IMG/VR virus record: IMGVR_UViG_3300037882_000718
Coordinates: 1 to 25,492 of that record
Strand: one strand, 5' to 3'
DNA from: a virus
Length of the DNA: 25,492 nucleotides
The translations under genes were made by a program, and so were the position numbers. Below, one piece after another: positions 3,562 to 11,722 of this stretch (positions are counted from its first letter, which is position 1; every line of letters starts with the position of its first letter). The notes beneath the pieces are model-generated. The model was not told the origin of the DNA, searched no databases, and saw nothing but the letters and a program-made list of their open reading frames with translations.

Positions 3562-3761
3562 TTATCTGGTAAAACATCCATCACCACAAGTTCATCTAGG
3601 TCAGTCCAGAATTGGCAGTTAGCAATCTCGTATCGGAACTTTGCTACTTTGCTGCTAGGTGAGATTTCAAGTAGAGTCCACTCATGGCGAGCTATTCTTG
3701 TCATGCTGTCAGTGAGCAAAAGCCGCTTGCCTATAAGTTCGGTCCATTTATGGGAGGGCAT
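3558..3761 (-). CDS. Small hypothetical protein, first gene of recombination operon
   Basis: 67 aa from the ATG at 3761 (starts MPSHKWTELIGKR). An in-frame ATG at 3782 exists, but those extra seven codons lie inside a terminator-like hairpin and its T-run, so I prefer the internal start. Content is mixed alpha/beta with many aromatic and acidic residues; the C-terminus LDELVVMDVLPDK could be an interaction tail. No family recognised. Its stop overlaps the next start by ATGA, which makes it the first member of the six-gene coupled set running to the left edge. Confidence 0.6.
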   Translation of the reverse strand: MPSHKWTELIGKRLLLTDSMTRIARHEWTLLEISPSSKVAKFRYEIANCQFWTDLDELVVMDVLPDK

Positions 3762-6332: not shown

Positions 6333-6455
6333 TTAATTCCCTCCAAGGAGTTGACCGAGTTCTTCTTTGTGGAGAAGACTGTAGTTAAAGGTATCCCATT
6401 CATACCAGACATAGAAGAAGTCTAGGTTTGTTGGTGATTGAATGATGGTTAGCAT
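6333..6455 (-). CDS. 40-aa hypothetical protein
   Basis: Starts MLTIIQSPTNLDFFYVWYEW and ends GQLLGGN; aromatic and acidic in the middle. The start is 10 nt downstream of the tRNA 3' end, so both may be on one transcript. The SD for the next gene (GGAGGG) overlaps its last codons, a sign of coupled translation. No function can be assigned. Confidence 0.5.
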   Translation of the reverse strand: MLTIIQSPTNLDFFYVWYEWDTFNYSLLHKEELGQLLGGN

Positions 6456-6604: not shown

Positions 6605-7071
6605 TAATCCACAGAGGCAGCTTTGTCAATGCACTCGATGTGGATTAAATTTGCACCCCCTACCCAAGCAACATTGCGAAGCGTCTTTCTCTCGCTTACC
6701 TTGTCGTTATTCAGCACAAGTGGGACGTAGCTCTGACGTGAGCCTAAAGCTGACATTACGGTGTGTCCAACTAATGCTGGCGTAATAAACAGCGATTCGT
6801 CCTTTATTGTTTGTGTGCGTGGGGGACTAAGGATTGTTGAGTAGGGGGAAGGTGAAAAGGATGCAAGCGAGCTAGATTCCCCTGCGATGGATGCAAGCCC
6901 GCCAAGGGAGGCTTTCGCCGGGAAGATTCTAGGGATCGCTTGCATCGAGAAGAGATTATGATCCTTTGCCCAATTGGGCAAGCGTTATTTTCAAGCGGAT
7001 TGCCTTAATTGCCAAGGGCTTGCATGGAATCGGCGAAAAAAGATTTATCCCTCGATTGGCCTGGCCTTTGC
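6605..7071. other. Non-coding region with inverted repeats
   Basis: About 470 nt without a supported gene; one long leftward frame here reads into the tRNA and is discarded. Contents: TAATCCACA/TGTGGATTA (6605-6613 with 6639-6647); AAGCG/CGCTT flanking an SD-like AGAGAAAGA (about 6678-6696); a large inverted repeat at 6860-6946; and the perfect 16-bp palindrome TTGCCCAATTGGGCAA at 6966-6981. A small untranslated RNA or an origin is possible. Confidence 0.45.
6860..6946. repeat. Imperfect inverted repeat, 87 nt
   Basis: GATGCAAGCGA (6860-6870) is repeated inverted as TCGCTTGCATC (6936-6946). Inner CTAG and TTCCC segments extend the pairing, and the apex holds GGCGAAAGCC (a GAAA-loop hairpin on the minus strand). 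A third GGATGCAAGC copy lies at about 6889-6898. Confidence 0.55.
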
Positions 7072-7361: not shown

Positions 7362-7994
7362 TTAGAAATAAAGAACGCAACCATTTTGAACTTGAGTTTG
7401 AAATCCCATTTGCTTTAGCGTTGCAATTGCTTCTTGTTCCTCTTGTGGAGTGGTGCAGCGGAACTTGATTGTGTTGGTATAACGCCAAGTGACATCCTCA
7501 GCGTGATGCTTGGCTATGAGTTCGAGTTTGTTTTCACGCTCGTAGAGATTATCCCATGAGACGGTTACATCCCATGCTGGCGGTTTTGGAACTTCATGCG
7601 CACTTAAAACTGGCGGCGCGCCGGTTGCGGTTTCGGGATTGCCGTAAAAAGTTTTAAGTTGATCTTTATAGTCATTCTTAATTATGACTGTGCCACAAGC
7701 CGTTTCCTTAAACTTAAGCAGTGTAAGATTCAGCGTGATTGGTATAATATGCGACCTATACTCTTCCAACCCACCATACAACATATACGCCCGCCTTGCT
7801 TCTTGAAGACAATTCACAAATGTCTTCGCTTTCATTGGCCGCAATGGTTCCTTAAACTCCCTAGGATTAACCTCATACGTTCCATTATCCGCCCTTGCTA
7901 GAAAGTGTTCATACTTCCTAAAATGCTTTGCACTCAATGTCTCTCTCACCGCAAGCTCAACCACTCTTCCATCAGGTAATGTCATTTTTGTCAT
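7362..7994 (-). CDS. Hypothetical protein
   Basis: 210 aa from the ATG at 7994 (MTKMTLPDGRVVELAVRETL), preceded by the A-rich TTAGTTAAAAAC; 7985 is an alternative. A frame start at 8060 would add 22 residues that read like leader sequence and cover a GATCCTTCGATC site. The protein has a helical N-terminal half (KHFRKYEHFLARAD, KTFVNCLQEARRAYMLYGGLEEY), then a beta-rich part (VIPITLNLTLLKF, GTVIIKNDY), a Pro-rich linker and a C-terminal domain ending IATLKQMGFQTQVQNGCVLYF. No motif identifies its job. Confidence 0.75.
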   Translation of the reverse strand: MTKMTLPDGRVVELAVRETLSAKHFRKYEHFLARADNGTYEVNPREFKEPLRPMKAKTFVNCLQEARRAYMLYGGLEEYRSHIIPITLNLTLLKFKETACGTVIIKNDYKDQLKTFYGNPETATGAPPVLSAHEVPKPPAWDVTVSWDNLYERENKLELIAKHHAEDVTWRYTNTIKFRCTTPQEEQEAIATLKQMGFQTQVQNGCVLYF

Positions 7995-8101
7995 GTTTTT
8001 AACTAAAAGCTGGATAAAAGGCGGTCTGGACAGAGACCATTTTTTGATCCTTCGATCCATTGCTTATAGCTAGATCATTCTGGATCAAGCCCTTGCCAAT
8101 T

Positions 8102-8400
8102 GCAAGGGAAAAAGAAAGGCTAAAAAGCAAAAAGGCCATTTCTTTTAAGATGGGGCTGCGACGCGCGCGGCTAGCCTTAAGATCAAAGGATCAAATAAAT
8201 CATCTACTACTCCTTTTAATTTTCTCGATCCTGCGTATAGGGAATTCTTGAGTTTTACCATAAATTCAATTGATTCTATTCTAACCAATTGAATTGATTT
8301 GATTGATTCAATATATCGCAGCCCCGGCGCTGATCGCGGGGCCATCCTAAAAGAAATCGCCTTTTTCTTTTCTTTCTTTCCATGCTCCATAAGCCCTTGC
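8102..8400. repeat. Large imperfect inverted repeat, about 300 bp
   Basis: The left arm (8102-8161) and right arm (8314-8400) share, in inverted orientation, GCAAGGG, a 24-nt block with two mismatches (8129-8153 versus 8339-8366) and the 10-mer GGGGCTGCGA. The right arm carries a 16-nt insertion. The centre holds AATTCAATTG/CAATTGAATT (8263-8295). The gap between genes (7995-8449) is otherwise empty; a 38-aa frame in the middle (minus, 8145-8261) is unconvincing. It could be a MITE-like insertion, a replication origin or a long RNA hairpin. Confidence 0.6.
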
Positions 8401-8970: not shown

Positions 8971-9075
8971 TCATTTACCCTTTCTTAATCCACCAGCACA
9001 ATGCCAATGGGAAGTTGATTTAATCACTTCAATCGCGAGCCAAGGCTTTCCCAAGCTCGCGAGTGCTGGGATTAA
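8971..9075 (-). promoter_or_regulatory. Structured leader element 1 (closing stem plus two hairpins)
   Basis: Closing stem P1: TTAATCC-CAGCA (9075-9064) with TGCTG-GT-GGATTAA (8998-8985), 12 bp and a 2-nt bulge. Hairpin P2: TCGCGAGC/GCTCGCGA (9062-9055 with 9040-9033) with a 14-nt loop TTGGGAAAGCCTTG. Hairpin P3: GAAGT...ACTTC (9030-9011) with GATTAA inside. P1 starts at the upstream stop codon and ends against the SD AAGAAAGGG. Confidence 0.7.
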
Positions 9076-9266
9076 CTATTCAATACTCGCATCACTATGT
9101 CGTCGATTTTTCGCTCAACCTCGCGCAATTCTGCGCGCAATTCGATGACTTTCGCGGCAAGTTCTTCAAGGATCAAATGCTCGCTAGTTTGTAGCTTTGT
9201 ATCAACAGTATGCTTCACAATTCGCTTGGCGGAATTGTTGATTATGTTGTAGGTGCTCGCTGCCAT
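9072..9266 (-). CDS. Small coiled-coil protein
   Basis: 64 aa from the ATG at 9266, placed by GAGAAAGG 5 nt upstream; an in-frame ATG at 9281 precedes that SD and is rejected. The C-terminal half is a clear coiled coil (HLILEELAAKVIELRAELRE, followed by VERKIDDIVMRVLNS) with Leu/Ile heptads, so it probably oligomerises. The N-terminus (MAASTYNIINNSAKRIVKH) is polar. No family recognised. Its stop codon overlaps the first base pairs of the next leader stem. Confidence 0.7.
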   Translation of the reverse strand: MAASTYNIINNSAKRIVKHTVDTKLQTSEHLILEELAAKVIELRAELREVERKIDDIVMRVLNS

Positions 9267-9368
9267 TCTAACCTTTCTCAATTTCCTCGCGCCTATTGGC
9301 TCAAGGGAAGCTTAATCACTTCGCTGGCCAGCCTGAGCCGTCCCAAGCTGGCCAACGTGGAGATTAAA
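9267..9368 (-). promoter_or_regulatory. Structured leader element 2
   Basis: P2 is TGGCCAGC/GCTGGCCA (9354-9347 with 9332-9325) with a 14-nt loop TTGGGACGGCTCAG. P3 is GAAGT-GATTAA-GCTTC (9322-9307). P1 is weaker: TTTAATCTCCACG with CGAGGAAATTGA, with two mismatches and a G-U. It lies between the stop at 9369 and SD GAGAAAGG. P2 differs from element 1 at many stem positions but pairing is kept, and both loops begin TTGGGA. Confidence 0.68.
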
Positions 9369-9566
9369 CTAATCACCAACAATCCGCAACGGGAATTCCG
9401 CAAGCTGCCATTCGCCATTCTCCCGTTTACCAAGAACTTCATAAGCTGCCCATTTGCCTATTGCATCCTTATCGACAAACAATGTTCCAATGGGCAAGTC
9501 AATCCATTCCGTTCTTTGCGTTGCTTGGATAAATTCACCCAAGCCCATTTGTACAATTTTTTTCAC
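9369..9566 (-). CDS. Small hypothetical protein, GTG start
   Basis: 65 aa from a GTG at 9566, chosen because GAGAAAGG stands 7 nt before it. An internal ATG at 9548 would remove six residues. The sequence MGLGEFIQATQRTEWIDLPIGTLF... then GKWAAYEVLGKRENGEWQLAEFPLRIV reads as a small beta-rich fold with a conserved-looking Trp/Tyr core. No known family. It belongs to the small-gene operon and is preceded by leader element 3. Confidence 0.68.
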   Translation of the reverse strand: MKKIVQMGLGEFIQATQRTEWIDLPIGTLFVDKDAIGKWAAYEVLGKRENGEWQLAEFPLRIVGD

Positions 9567-9650
9567 GCCGTTGCCTTTCTCTTTCTTCGCGGGATAATCC
9601 CCGCGCCTAAGCTCCTGACCCCTGCCAAGAGCCTAGTCGCGAGAATCGCC
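9567..9650 (-). promoter_or_regulatory. Structured leader element 3
   Basis: P2 is CTAGGCTC/GAGCTTAG (9636-9629 with 9614-9607; one G-U) with a 14-nt loop TTGGCAGGGGTCAG. P3 is GCGGG-GATTAT-CCCGC just before the SD. P1 may be TTCTCGC with GCGAAGAA. It is the third instance of the 8-bp stem with 14-nt loop and occupies the entire gap. Confidence 0.66.
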
Positions 9651-9926
9651 TTATGGCTTGAATTCAGCCTCCACCGCGCTTTCCTTGCCCTTCAATCCCA
9701 ATGCCGCCATTCCTGCGCTAGCATTACTCCCGAACCACCCCGGCGTATCCGCCTCAAACGCTTTCCAAGCTTCCGCCCGCTCTTCCCCCGCTGCCCCGAG
9801 GGCATCCGCAATAAAGCGAAAGACCGCCAACCTCATCGCCTTTGCGCTGCAAACCTCCACGCCCCTATCCTTCCCCGCTGTCTCCAGCAAGGGCTTTACA
9901 TTCAGCGTTTGTTGTGACATAGCCAT
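9651..9926 (-). CDS. Small hypothetical protein, Ala-rich
   Basis: 91 aa, mostly helical and Ala/Glu-rich (AMRLAVFRFIADALGAAGEE, RAEAWKAFEADTPGWFGS). A GxF/Gly-rich turn is followed by an acidic C-terminus AVEAEFKP. GC content is higher than in neighbouring small genes. SD GAGAAAGG lies 11 nt before the ATG at 9926; the internal ATG at 9920 is possible. Function not recognisable. The opposite strand is also open here, but lacks SD sites and runs across several leader elements. Confidence 0.7.
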   Translation of the reverse strand: MAMSQQTLNVKPLLETAGKDRGVEVCSAKAMRLAVFRFIADALGAAGEERAEAWKAFEADTPGWFGSNASAGMAALGLKGKESAVEAEFKP

Positions 9927-10014
9927 AATTTTCTAACCTTTCTCTCTAAGCGATCTGCGCTCGTCAGCATTGCCTTTTTAGCAATGGACGGGCCAAAAGC
10001 CCGTTTCGCGCTTA
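9927..10014 (-). promoter_or_regulatory. Structured leader element 4 (three-stem junction)
   Basis: P1 is TAAGCG/CGCTTA (10014-10009 with 9952-9947), whose first three bases are the TAA stop of the upstream gene. P2 is ACGGGC/GCCCGT (10004-9999 with 9993-9988). P3 is CATTGC/GCAATG (9986-9981 with 9973-9968). SD GAGAAAGG follows P1 directly. It has the same layout as its neighbours but different loops. Confidence 0.66.
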
Positions 10015-10185
10015 TGCCTTTTCAATTTGAACCGTAATTGGCCCTAAAACAACATAGCTCAAATGCGGCTCGCTTTCAATAACAATATCCTCCGCATAAT
10101 CTTGAGCCGCGCCGATTGAAACAAAAACTTCTGTTTCTGTTTTTTCCCCAAGACCATAAATAACCAACAGGAATGCTTCTTTCAT
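10012..10185 (-). CDS. Small hypothetical protein
   Basis: 57 aa from the ATG at 10185, 9 nt after SD GAGAGAAAG; the two ATGs just upstream are too close to the SD. It reads MKEAFLLVIYGLGEKTETEV, then a helix SIGAAQDYAEDIVI and strands HLSYVVLGPITVQIEKA: a compact beta-alpha-beta unit. The pattern of hydrophobic strand, acidic turn and Ala/Tyr helix resembles the 45-aa protein encoded next upstream (10280-10417), so the two may be distant paralogues. Function unknown. Confidence 0.7.
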   Translation of the reverse strand: MKEAFLLVIYGLGEKTETEVFVSIGAAQDYAEDIVIESEPHLSYVVLGPITVQIEKA

Positions 10186-10279
10186 AACCATCATCTTTCT
10201 CTCGCCCTATTCGCCGGGCAGGCTCTGAGGCTTAATCGCCCCGATGAACCATCGCCCTTGCAATGGCTCGCCGGGATAA
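10186..10279 (-). promoter_or_regulatory. Structured leader element 5
   Basis: P2 is GAGCCATTGC/GCGATGGTTC (10269-10260 with 10255-10246), 10 bp with two G-U pairs and an AAGG tetraloop. P3 is GGGGC-GATTAA-GCCTC (10242-10227). P1 is weak (TAT and CCGG segments pairing with CCGG and ATA). It runs from the upstream stop to SD GAGAGAAAG. Confidence 0.62.
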
Positions 10280-10417
10280 TCAAAGCGCGATCCAGCTTTG
10301 GGCATATCTAAACGCCTCGCTTACAACATCAAAGCTATGTTCGCTTTTAATCGCCCCATCGACAATTAAAAACAAAACATAAACCCCGCCGCGATTCTCA
10401 ATCCTAATAATTTTCAT
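10280..10417 (-). CDS. 45-aa hypothetical protein
   Basis: Begins MKIIRIENRGGVYVLFLIVD and ends RYAQSWIAL: two strands, then a helix (HSFDVVSEAFRYAQSWIAL). SD GAGAAAGG lies 7 nt before the ATG at 10417, after leader element 6, which makes this short frame credible. The strand-helix pattern resembles the 57-aa protein encoded downstream. Interestingly, its codons for DGAIK contain GGGGCGATTAA, the same string as the P3 hairpins of elements 5 and 6. Function unknown. Confidence 0.65.
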   Translation of the reverse strand: MKIIRIENRGGVYVLFLIVDGAIKSEHSFDVVSEAFRYAQSWIAL

Positions 10418-10500
10418 TTTTTGCCTTTCTCAAAAGGGCTTAATCGCCCCGTAGAATGGACTAGCTAATCCTATGCCAGCTAATCCATTCAGCGGGAGAA
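10418..10500 (-). promoter_or_regulatory. Structured leader element 6
   Basis: P2 is a 13-bp hairpin, GAATGGAT-TAGCT with AGCTA-GTCCATTC (10490-10478 with 10466-10454), 11-nt loop. P3 is GGGGC-GATTAA-GCCCT (10450-10435). A short P1, TTCTC/GAGAA (10431-10427 with 10500-10496), would pair directly with part of the SD GAGAAAGG and so could mask it. Confidence 0.66.
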
Positions 10501-10746
10501 TCAATCATTCAAATGCCCATAAGAACAAGAAAACGGCCTCTGCATAGGCTTAATCAATTCTCTCTTGCAATGCCCGCAAGTAAACCATCTTGCCTTGCCA
10601 TTCCATTTTTCATAATCCTCAATCTCTTTTTCTGTAATTTCCTCAATTTGCCAATGGCTAGGCTTGCTGGCCAACGGCGTATCACTAAAGCCAAGAAGAT
10701 TCCCCTCTTGGCCAAAGCCCGCGAAAGCTATGATTTTGAATTTCAT
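10501..10746 (-). CDS. Small zinc-ribbon-like protein
   Basis: 81 aa. SD GAGGAG lies 5 nt before the ATG at 10746. The N-terminus (MKFKIIAFAGFGQEGNLLGF) is hydrophobic and Gly-rich, followed by an acidic helix EEITEKEIEDYEKWNGKA. The C-terminus carries FTCGHC...FSCSYGH, a C-x2-C...C-x3-H arrangement that could bind zinc. Small zinc-ribbon proteins in phages often bind nucleic acid or a host protein; which applies here is unknown. Its start region overlaps the end of the 76-aa frame upstream. Confidence 0.72.
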   Translation of the reverse strand: MKFKIIAFAGFGQEGNLLGFSDTPLASKPSHWQIEEITEKEIEDYEKWNGKARWFTCGHCKRELIKPMQRPFSCSYGHLND

Positions 10747-10915: not shown

Positions 10916-11226
10916 TGTAAAATTATTTTCCTCGTCTGTAAAGAAAGTTTGCTCTTTTGGACCATGAATGGGAGTGTTAGCTTTTCCGACTGTGATTTGC
11001 TGGCAATTTGATGGACTGGAAAGAATACCGACGTCGTAAAGGATTGATAGTCAAGGATGGTGTCGGAAAGATTTACGATCCTTGGATCGAGGGGGGGAAT
11101 GGCTAGGTCGACCTGATCTCTATTATAGGCCGCGCCGCGCCTAGGCCGCTGAATGCCGCGCCGAGGCTTTCCCATCGCCTCAATATATCCCTGCCCGGCA
11201 AATCGCCTTATAGCAATCCCTATCAA
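10912..11226 (-). CDS. Doubtful 104-aa frame in control region
   Basis: The frame ends with an ATGA overlap to the 76-aa gene, which is in its favour. Its last 50 residues (LSDTILDYQSFTTSVFFPV...) look plausible, but the first half (GKPRRGIQRPRRGAAYNRDQ) covers palindromic DNA and has unusual composition. A shorter start inside is possible. I record it so that the end portion is not lost; treat as low confidence. Confidence 0.25.
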   Translation of the reverse strand: MIGIAIRRFAGQGYIEAMGKPRRGIQRPRRGAAYNRDQVDLAIPPLDPRIVNLSDTILDYQSFTTSVFFPVHQIASKSQSEKLTLPFMVQKSKLSLQTRKIILQ

Positions 11227-11384
11227 TCCAGTCGACTATGCCTTAGATCATTATCTAGCTGCGTCCTAGAGATTCAATCTCCATCATCTAGGTCGACATT
11301 AGCTCAATGGCCCCCCTGCCCATCCTCTCCCCCGGCAGCATGGCTTGCATGGGCTGGTCTACCCCCAGCCCCCCACTTGTGCGC

Positions 11385-11414
11385 GATGGGTCCCATCGAA
11401 GTCATGGGTCCCAT
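11385..11414. promoter_or_regulatory. Tandem palindromic operator-like sites
   Basis: GATGGGTCCCATC (11385-11397) and ATGGGTCCCAT (11404-11414) have centres 18 bp apart, about 50 bp upstream of the first rightward gene. Two identical palindromes at this spacing are typical of paired repressor-dimer sites; the binding protein is unknown. Confidence 0.45.
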
Positions 11415-11433
11415 CCCCACCCATCTCATCATT

Positions 11434-11462
11434 TTTGCTAATGTTTCTGTGGACTATATTAG
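11434..11462 (+). promoter_or_regulatory. Candidate promoter for rightward late genes
   Basis: TTTG (11434-11437), 17 nt, then TATATTAG (11455-11462), close to the Bacteroidota-type TTTG / TAnnTTTG pattern (which prefers about 19 nt). It does not fit sigma-70 spacing well. Placed just before the first rightward gene and after the tandem palindromes. Confidence 0.3.
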
Positions 11463-11467
11463 GATAA

Positions 11468-11722
11468 ATGATCCTTGGATCAGGGGTTGCATTCGCGGAG
11501 AGATTGGATTACATTTGTGTCATGGTTAATGAGCAAATGGCTATTGGATCAAAAAGTCCGGAGGTGCAAACGCGATATGCGCTGAATACAGTGGAACCAG
11601 TGGGGGTGAGTGTTTTTAAGAGGAATCCAGCGAGCCGGATGGCGAGTGGCCTTGTGAGTGAGTCAAACATTCCCTTTTTCGTTAGCGGTGGAAAGGCGAC
11701 TGATACAAAGTTTGAGGTATGA
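11468..11722 (+). CDS. Small hypothetical protein preceding terminase
   Basis: 84 aa from the ATG at 11468 (AGGA 4 nt before it); ATGs at 11522 and 11537 are alternatives and the sequence looks most natural from there. The body has strand-forming segments (EPVGVSVFKRNPASRMASGL, then ESNIPFFVSGGKATDTKFEV). The stop overlaps the next start by ATGA, which supports reality. Unknown function; a head or packaging accessory is possible from position only. Confidence 0.6.
   Translation: MILGSGVAFAERLDYICVMVNEQMAIGSKSPEVQTRYALNTVEPVGVSVFKRNPASRMASGLVSESNIPFFVSGGKATDTKFEV

Follow-up and report, generated by a model that had tools for sequence, protein, structure and literature searches.

What lies between the small genes of this tailed-phage operon, and what might the RNA structures in its gaps be for? 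The window, that is the whole stretch of 25,492 bases analysed (an IMG/VR virus record), belongs to a tailed phage. Its plus strand codes for terminase, portal and capsid proteins, and its minus strand carries genes of early type. The operon in question, made up of small genes, runs from 10746 down to 8513 on the minus strand, and within it six consecutive gaps of 80-105 nt, each beginning at the upstream stop codon, separate genes A to G. The gaps are numbered by window coordinates, from gap 1 (8971-9071) to gap 6 (10418-10500).

10501..10746, minus strand: gene A, 81 aa, no family match
10280..10417, minus strand: gene B, 45 aa, no family match
10012..10185, minus strand: gene C, reading frame open from 10194, with the ATG at 10185 better placed for the SD; no family match
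9651..9926, minus strand: gene D, 91 aa, with homologues at an equal map position in contigs L028 and L029
9369..9566, minus strand: gene E, 65 aa, GTG start
9072..9266, minus strand: gene F, 64 aa
8758..8970, minus strand: gene G, 70 aa, the last gene with an element upstream; the next gene overlaps it

The small proteins of the operon gave no useful match in Pfam or PHROGs, and no near relative of the window phage was found in the phage collection. Its nearest contigs are L028, L029 and L030, which share 50-54% identity in the portal and 52-54% in the terminase protein. Single-protein scans with gene D, MCP and the nuclease as queries revealed no close relatives, an alignment search with gene D found no relative beyond L028, and the sole matches in a prophage scan with the portal were two distant alphaproteobacterial MAG contigs. 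Elsewhere in the window, positions 11070-11486 between the divergent gene blocks contain repeated GATCCTTGGATC and CTAGGTCGAC words and represent a possible origin or control region. A 62-nt inverted repeat (arms 8107-8168 and 8327-8388, 71% complementary, 158 nt spacer) stands upstream of the next minus-strand gene (7362-8060).

RNA structure in the gaps of the small-gene operon

A sequence-only reading of this DNA had proposed that all six gaps hold one family of three-stem RNA elements (a closing stem P1 with hairpins P2 and P3) ending at one exact SD. The gaps are real, with edges a few bases away from those proposed, and five of them fold strongly, with z-scores against dinucleotide shuffles of -3.75, -5.68, -4.99, -3.00 and -4.49 for gaps 1, 2, 3, 5 and 6, whereas gap 4 folds weakly (-1.48). 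An unbiased scan of 635 minus-strand segments of 100 nt gave z < -3 for 28, eight of which fall in the gap stretch. The exact SD GAGAAAGG is present in four of the six gaps, but gap 5 has GAGAAAGA and gap 1 has AAGAAAGG.

In predicted folds the transcribed strand is more stable than its complement in every copy of the hairpin described below, and six hairpins, including one from L029, contain 26 G-U pairs versus five opposed A.C. Selection thus appears to act on the RNA, which argues against a plain DNA palindrome. The 5' strand of the fold includes the stop codon in gaps 1, 2, 5 and 6. No terminator-like site was found on the minus strand between 8300 and 11600, and intrinsic terminators were rejected since no U run follows the hairpins on this strand.

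A predicted type II hammerhead in gap 4

The six gaps do not form one family: gap 4 contains a type II hammerhead, as judged from its core and stems, and the other five share a long hairpin. The parts of the hammerhead are as follows.

9957..10011, minus strand: type II hammerhead (Rfam RF02276 match and strict descriptor)
10011-10008 and 9960-9957, minus strand: stem II, GCGC / GCGC
10007-10004, minus strand: core GAAA
10004-9988, minus strand: stem III, ACGGGC/GCCCGU
after C9987, minus strand: predicted cut (GUC^)
9986-9968, minus strand: stem I, CAUUGC/GCAAUG
9967-9961, minus strand: core CUGACGA

The match to RF02276 (Hammerhead_II) spans 10011-9949 with 27.7 bits (E 0.0073 in 2.4 kb and 0.00049 in 161 nt), below the Rfam cut-off of 37 bits, which is an automatic listing threshold and not a biochemical feature. 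All core nucleotides are present in the Rfam alignment, and the topology is that of type II, with stems I and III closed by loops and stem II open (7, 7 and 4 pairs for stems I, III and II by the descriptor count). Gap 4 shares with described type II hammerheads (RF02276; PMC3088659) the stem order, GAAA, the NUH cut site and CUGANGA, but its score is below the Rfam cut-off, and no convincing pseudoknot (at least 4 pairs) was seen to link its loop I to the 3' tail. By eye this pseudoknot has at most 3 pairs (UAA with UUA); it is a feature of the majority, not all, of type II members. The layout of a closing stem with two hairpins, for which the sequence-only reading knew of no described counterpart, is in gap 4 that of the type II hammerhead.

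The strict descriptor, which demands a complete core and stems of at least 4, 5 and 5 pairs, had three matches in the 1.56 Mb formed by the window and the fetched contigs, whereas 60 shuffled versions of that set gave none. These are gap 4, L029 3702 and L104 4696 (both minus strand), with variable stems and a constant core. When the core was sought with one mismatch allowed in the window, L028 and L029, gap 4 was the only site in the window. In L029 the strict core at 3702 lies directly after a stop codon and was not listed by Rfam, so that it is a candidate hammerhead only; L104 is a distant relative, and its type II core occupies the gap before a 290-aa gene. Rfam searches at gathering level of six further contigs of this phage group gave no match. 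Among side observations, a core resembling that of a hammerhead (CUGACGA..GAAA) lies at 129 on the minus strand of L038, near the contig start; it has three stems, of which stem I is open. Downstream of the L029 candidate a T-arm-like hairpin (ACAAAAGGTTCGATTCCTTTTGT) is present (3562-3743, minus strand), where ARAGORN found no tRNA.

A long-hairpin family in the other five gaps

Gaps 1-3, 5 and 6 follow a common design, a single imperfect hairpin of 20-26 bp and 56-65 nt, with a rival short hairpin, P3, that uses the 3' strand of the long one and usually has the loop GAUUAA.

10440..10504, minus strand: gap 6 long hairpin, 26 bp, base UUGAUU-C-UCCCG / CGGGG-C-GAUUAA, overlapping the stop TGA 10503-10501
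10435..10450, minus strand: gap 6 alternative P3, GGGGC GAUUAA GCCCU
10230..10286, minus strand: gap 5 long hairpin, 24 bp, base UUGAUU-A-UCCCG / CGGGG-C-GAUUAA, overlapping the stop TGA 10282-10280
10227..10242, minus strand: gap 5 alternative P3, GGGGC GAUUAA GCCUC
9594..9649, minus strand: gap 3 long hairpin, 23 bp, base GCGAUU-C-UCGCG / CGCGG-G-GAUUAU, directly 3' of the stop TAA
9588..9605, minus strand: gap 3 alternative P3, CGCGGG GAUUAU CCCGCG
9309..9370, minus strand: gap 2 long hairpin, 26 bp, base AGUUUAAUC / GAUUAAGCU, 5' end within the stop TAG
9307..9322, minus strand: gap 2 alternative P3, GAAGU GAUUAA GCUUC
9020..9075, minus strand: gap 1 long hairpin, the weakest, 20 bp, base UUAAUC / GAUUAA overlapping the stop TAA 9074-9072
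9011..9030, minus strand: gap 1 alternative P3, GAAGU GAUUAAAUCA ACUUC

The design was read off by hand and then tested. On the 5' side, a 6-nt strand at the stop codon is followed by one opposed base, 5 nt and an upper hairpin of free sequence; on the 3' side, the 5-nt and 6-nt partners are followed by 5 nt (b') that pair with the first partner to form P3. An inner loop lies ~13 nt from the 3' end of the hairpin in gaps 5 and 6 and in the L029 copy. The proposed three-stem fold survives in part: P3 exists as an alternative, but the minimum-energy fold, computed with flanks, is the long hairpin with the stop codon included in gaps 2, 5 and 6, and the long hairpin also in the L029 copy. In gaps 1 and 3 another fold is preferred, by 2.2 and 4.2 kcal/mol, and the three-stem fold and the long hairpin are within about 2-4 kcal/mol of each other. 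Gap 1 also has a competing closing stem, UUAAUCC/GGAUUAA, near the SD.

The stems differ with pairing kept, as the sequence-only reading had stated. On a six-member skeleton from two phages, aligned by hand from structure and thus biased toward pairing, 95.6% of cells pair in the nested fold and 99.1% in the fold containing P3, with 11 and 12 pairs, respectively, changed on both sides; slid controls brought pairing down to 32-49%. These counts do not discriminate between the two folds, because both contain the base helix and the upper stem. Much of the covariation comes from the upper stem, which was picked as a stem, whereas only one such two-sided change falls in the base helix and three fall in P3. 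The base is nearly identical in gaps 5 and 6, and likewise in gaps 1 and 2, whereas the upper stems are unrelated, and the family has almost no conserved unpaired nucleotides.

No Rfam match was found for gaps 1-3, 5 and 6 down to E <= 5, and the covariance model R1 found no convincing member outside its training set in 1.16 Mb. A DNA pattern scan of IMG/VR with GCGATTAAGCC...GAGAAAG produced 20 matches without any array, which were judged to be chance. The loose form of a pseudoknot descriptor was unspecific (1.5 matches per shuffled window), and its strict form was specific. Several other candidates were set aside: stop-codon readthrough (the genes do not share a reading frame, and in gap 3 the frame closes after a few codons), permuted HDV-like and pistol-like ribozymes (no matching core), and integron attC sites, prompted by the common base and variable tip (no GTTRRRY/RYYYAAC boxes by eye).

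Different predicted elements at one orthologous site

The homologue of gene D is 58% identical in L028 (aligned stretch) and 31% identical in L029 (overall). A jackknife model built from the five window copies only had its best L029 match at 6371-6431 on the minus strand (17.9 bits, E 0.0094), a site bounded exactly by a small gene's stop codon on one side and by the start of the homologue of gene D on the other. The match is not significant across the whole 1.13 Mb, and it is this location in the orthologous gap, not the score, that makes the copy convincing. The expectation that homologous phages would keep such elements was thus borne out in L029 but not in L028, a close relative with gene D, in which no copy of the hairpin family was found. 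The leader of the L028 homologue (6831-6925, minus strand) has two small hairpins, and the loop CUAGCAA of one is fully complementary to UUGCUAG in the loop of the other, a possible kissing pair in the predicted fold.

Judged by their sequences, two different RNA elements hold the slot before gene D, a hammerhead in the window and a copy of the hairpin family in L029. The presence of the hairpin in the orthologous slot of the hammerhead suggests that both elements do one job.

Possible processing of the operon message

Among the three functions put forward for the gaps (translation control, RNase processing or spread of a repeat), mRNA processing is the best fit, as the sequence of gap 4 is that of a self-cleaver; translation control is possible, and the mere spread of a repeat has less in its favour, given that the copies have only the base in common and differ entirely in the upper stem. 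We propose, with about even confidence, that the gaps are intercistronic cutting sites that split a polycistronic phage message into separate mRNAs. Given its complete core, the gap 4 hammerhead would cut its own transcript after C9987, and the five hairpins, by their size and shape, may be cut by host RNase III or another RNase specific for double strands. If they are cut close to the internal loop ~13 nt from the 3' end, the strand that folds as P3 would be freed and would form a hairpin of 5-6 bp at the new 5' end, and hammerhead cleavage would leave stem I as a 5'-terminal hairpin, matching the P3-type end. After either cut, a hairpin of 5-7 pairs, usually with a loop of 6-7 nt, would stand at or near the new 5' end before the SD. 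This course of events would account for the retention of P3 in spite of its competition with the long hairpin. 5'-terminal hairpins can protect bacterial mRNAs, and those left here may affect message stability. Since the stop codon lies in or next to the 5' strand, ribosomes terminating on the upstream gene should delay folding of the hairpin.

Processing sites of the T7 type for RNase III, such as R1.1, are single imperfect hairpins of ~60 nt in phage operon gaps, with poorly conserved sequence, and the hairpins described here resemble them in all these respects; gaps 1-3, 5 and 6 reach the size of such intergenic sites (~20 or more bp in one imperfect hairpin). They differ in their symmetric small internal loops, the common base motif and the kept rival P3, and their cutting is predicted only. 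RNase III cleaves R1.1, one of its standard substrates, into pieces of 47 and 13 nt (PMC4858673), so that R1.1 is comparable in size to the 56-65 nt hairpins.

Translation control is the strongest competitor, though we consider it unlikely. The strand at the stop codon would pair either within its hairpin or with the region of the SD, allowing upstream translation or a phage factor to gate the next start, and the gap 4 hammerhead would be unrelated. The 5' strand overlaps the stop codon and can pair with or beside the SD in gaps 1, 2, 3 and 6, predicted SD accessibility spans 0.34 to 0.97, and P3 could serve such control instead of processing. However, the SD is mostly free in the long-hairpin fold of gaps 2 and 5, the L029 copy has no clear SD-closing stem, and the pairs that close the SD vary among the gaps, in contrast to the hairpin base and P3.

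Somewhat less probable are hairpins that stabilise or insulate, guarding the 3' ends of upstream pieces and blocking re-initiation with no cut at the site. Very stable stems right at the stop codons would suit this role, for which conserved unpaired nucleotides are unnecessary, but it leaves the kept P3 and the hammerhead in the same slot unexplained. A palindromic mobile or recombination element spread through the gaps at the DNA level is improbable: it would account for near-identical bases in gaps 5/6 and 1/2 below unrelated upper stems, but not for the G-U excess or the greater stability of the minus-strand RNA in all copies, and no recombinase was recognised nearby. Least probable, by a little, is a new self-cleaving class (P2 and the P3 hexaloop paired with the stop-codon strand) with the task of the hammerhead, which would make the operon an array of two ribozyme classes. 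In its favour, a P3 loop pseudoknot with the 5' strand is possible, the orthologous gap holds a hammerhead, and an enrichment of ribozymes close to one another and to genes of Mu-like phages has been described (PMC10085705). Against it, the hairpins have almost no conserved unpaired nucleotides, no Rfam ribozyme match and no hammerhead core even with one mismatch.

In prophages, clustered hammerheads placed on either side of single genes were found to cleave both in vitro and in E. coli, and messages of operon or single-gene length were proposed as their outcome (PMC3088659). The window operon resembles these arrays in its phage context and in flanking single genes, but it has one hammerhead, and its other gaps hold a different RNA. 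The ESAS of cluster K mycobacteriophages, with 17-bp consensus repeats and a 13-bp GGGATAGGAGCCC box (PMC3203893), are likewise inverted repeats ahead of the starts of many non-structural phage genes, but their conserved repeats and start-associated box are absent from the window gaps. Hammerheads of phages, singly or clustered, are known kinds of element, and so are phage operons with processing hairpins, whereas the mixed array, the hairpin family and the exchange at one orthologous site are new; no description of a mixed array with such an exchange was found in the limited set of literature searched.

The role of self-cleaving ribozymes in phages is a long-standing open question. The mixed array and the slot exchange make the proposal of mRNA cutting directly testable, as it predicts for both elements new 5' ends at matching places, each with a short hairpin cap.
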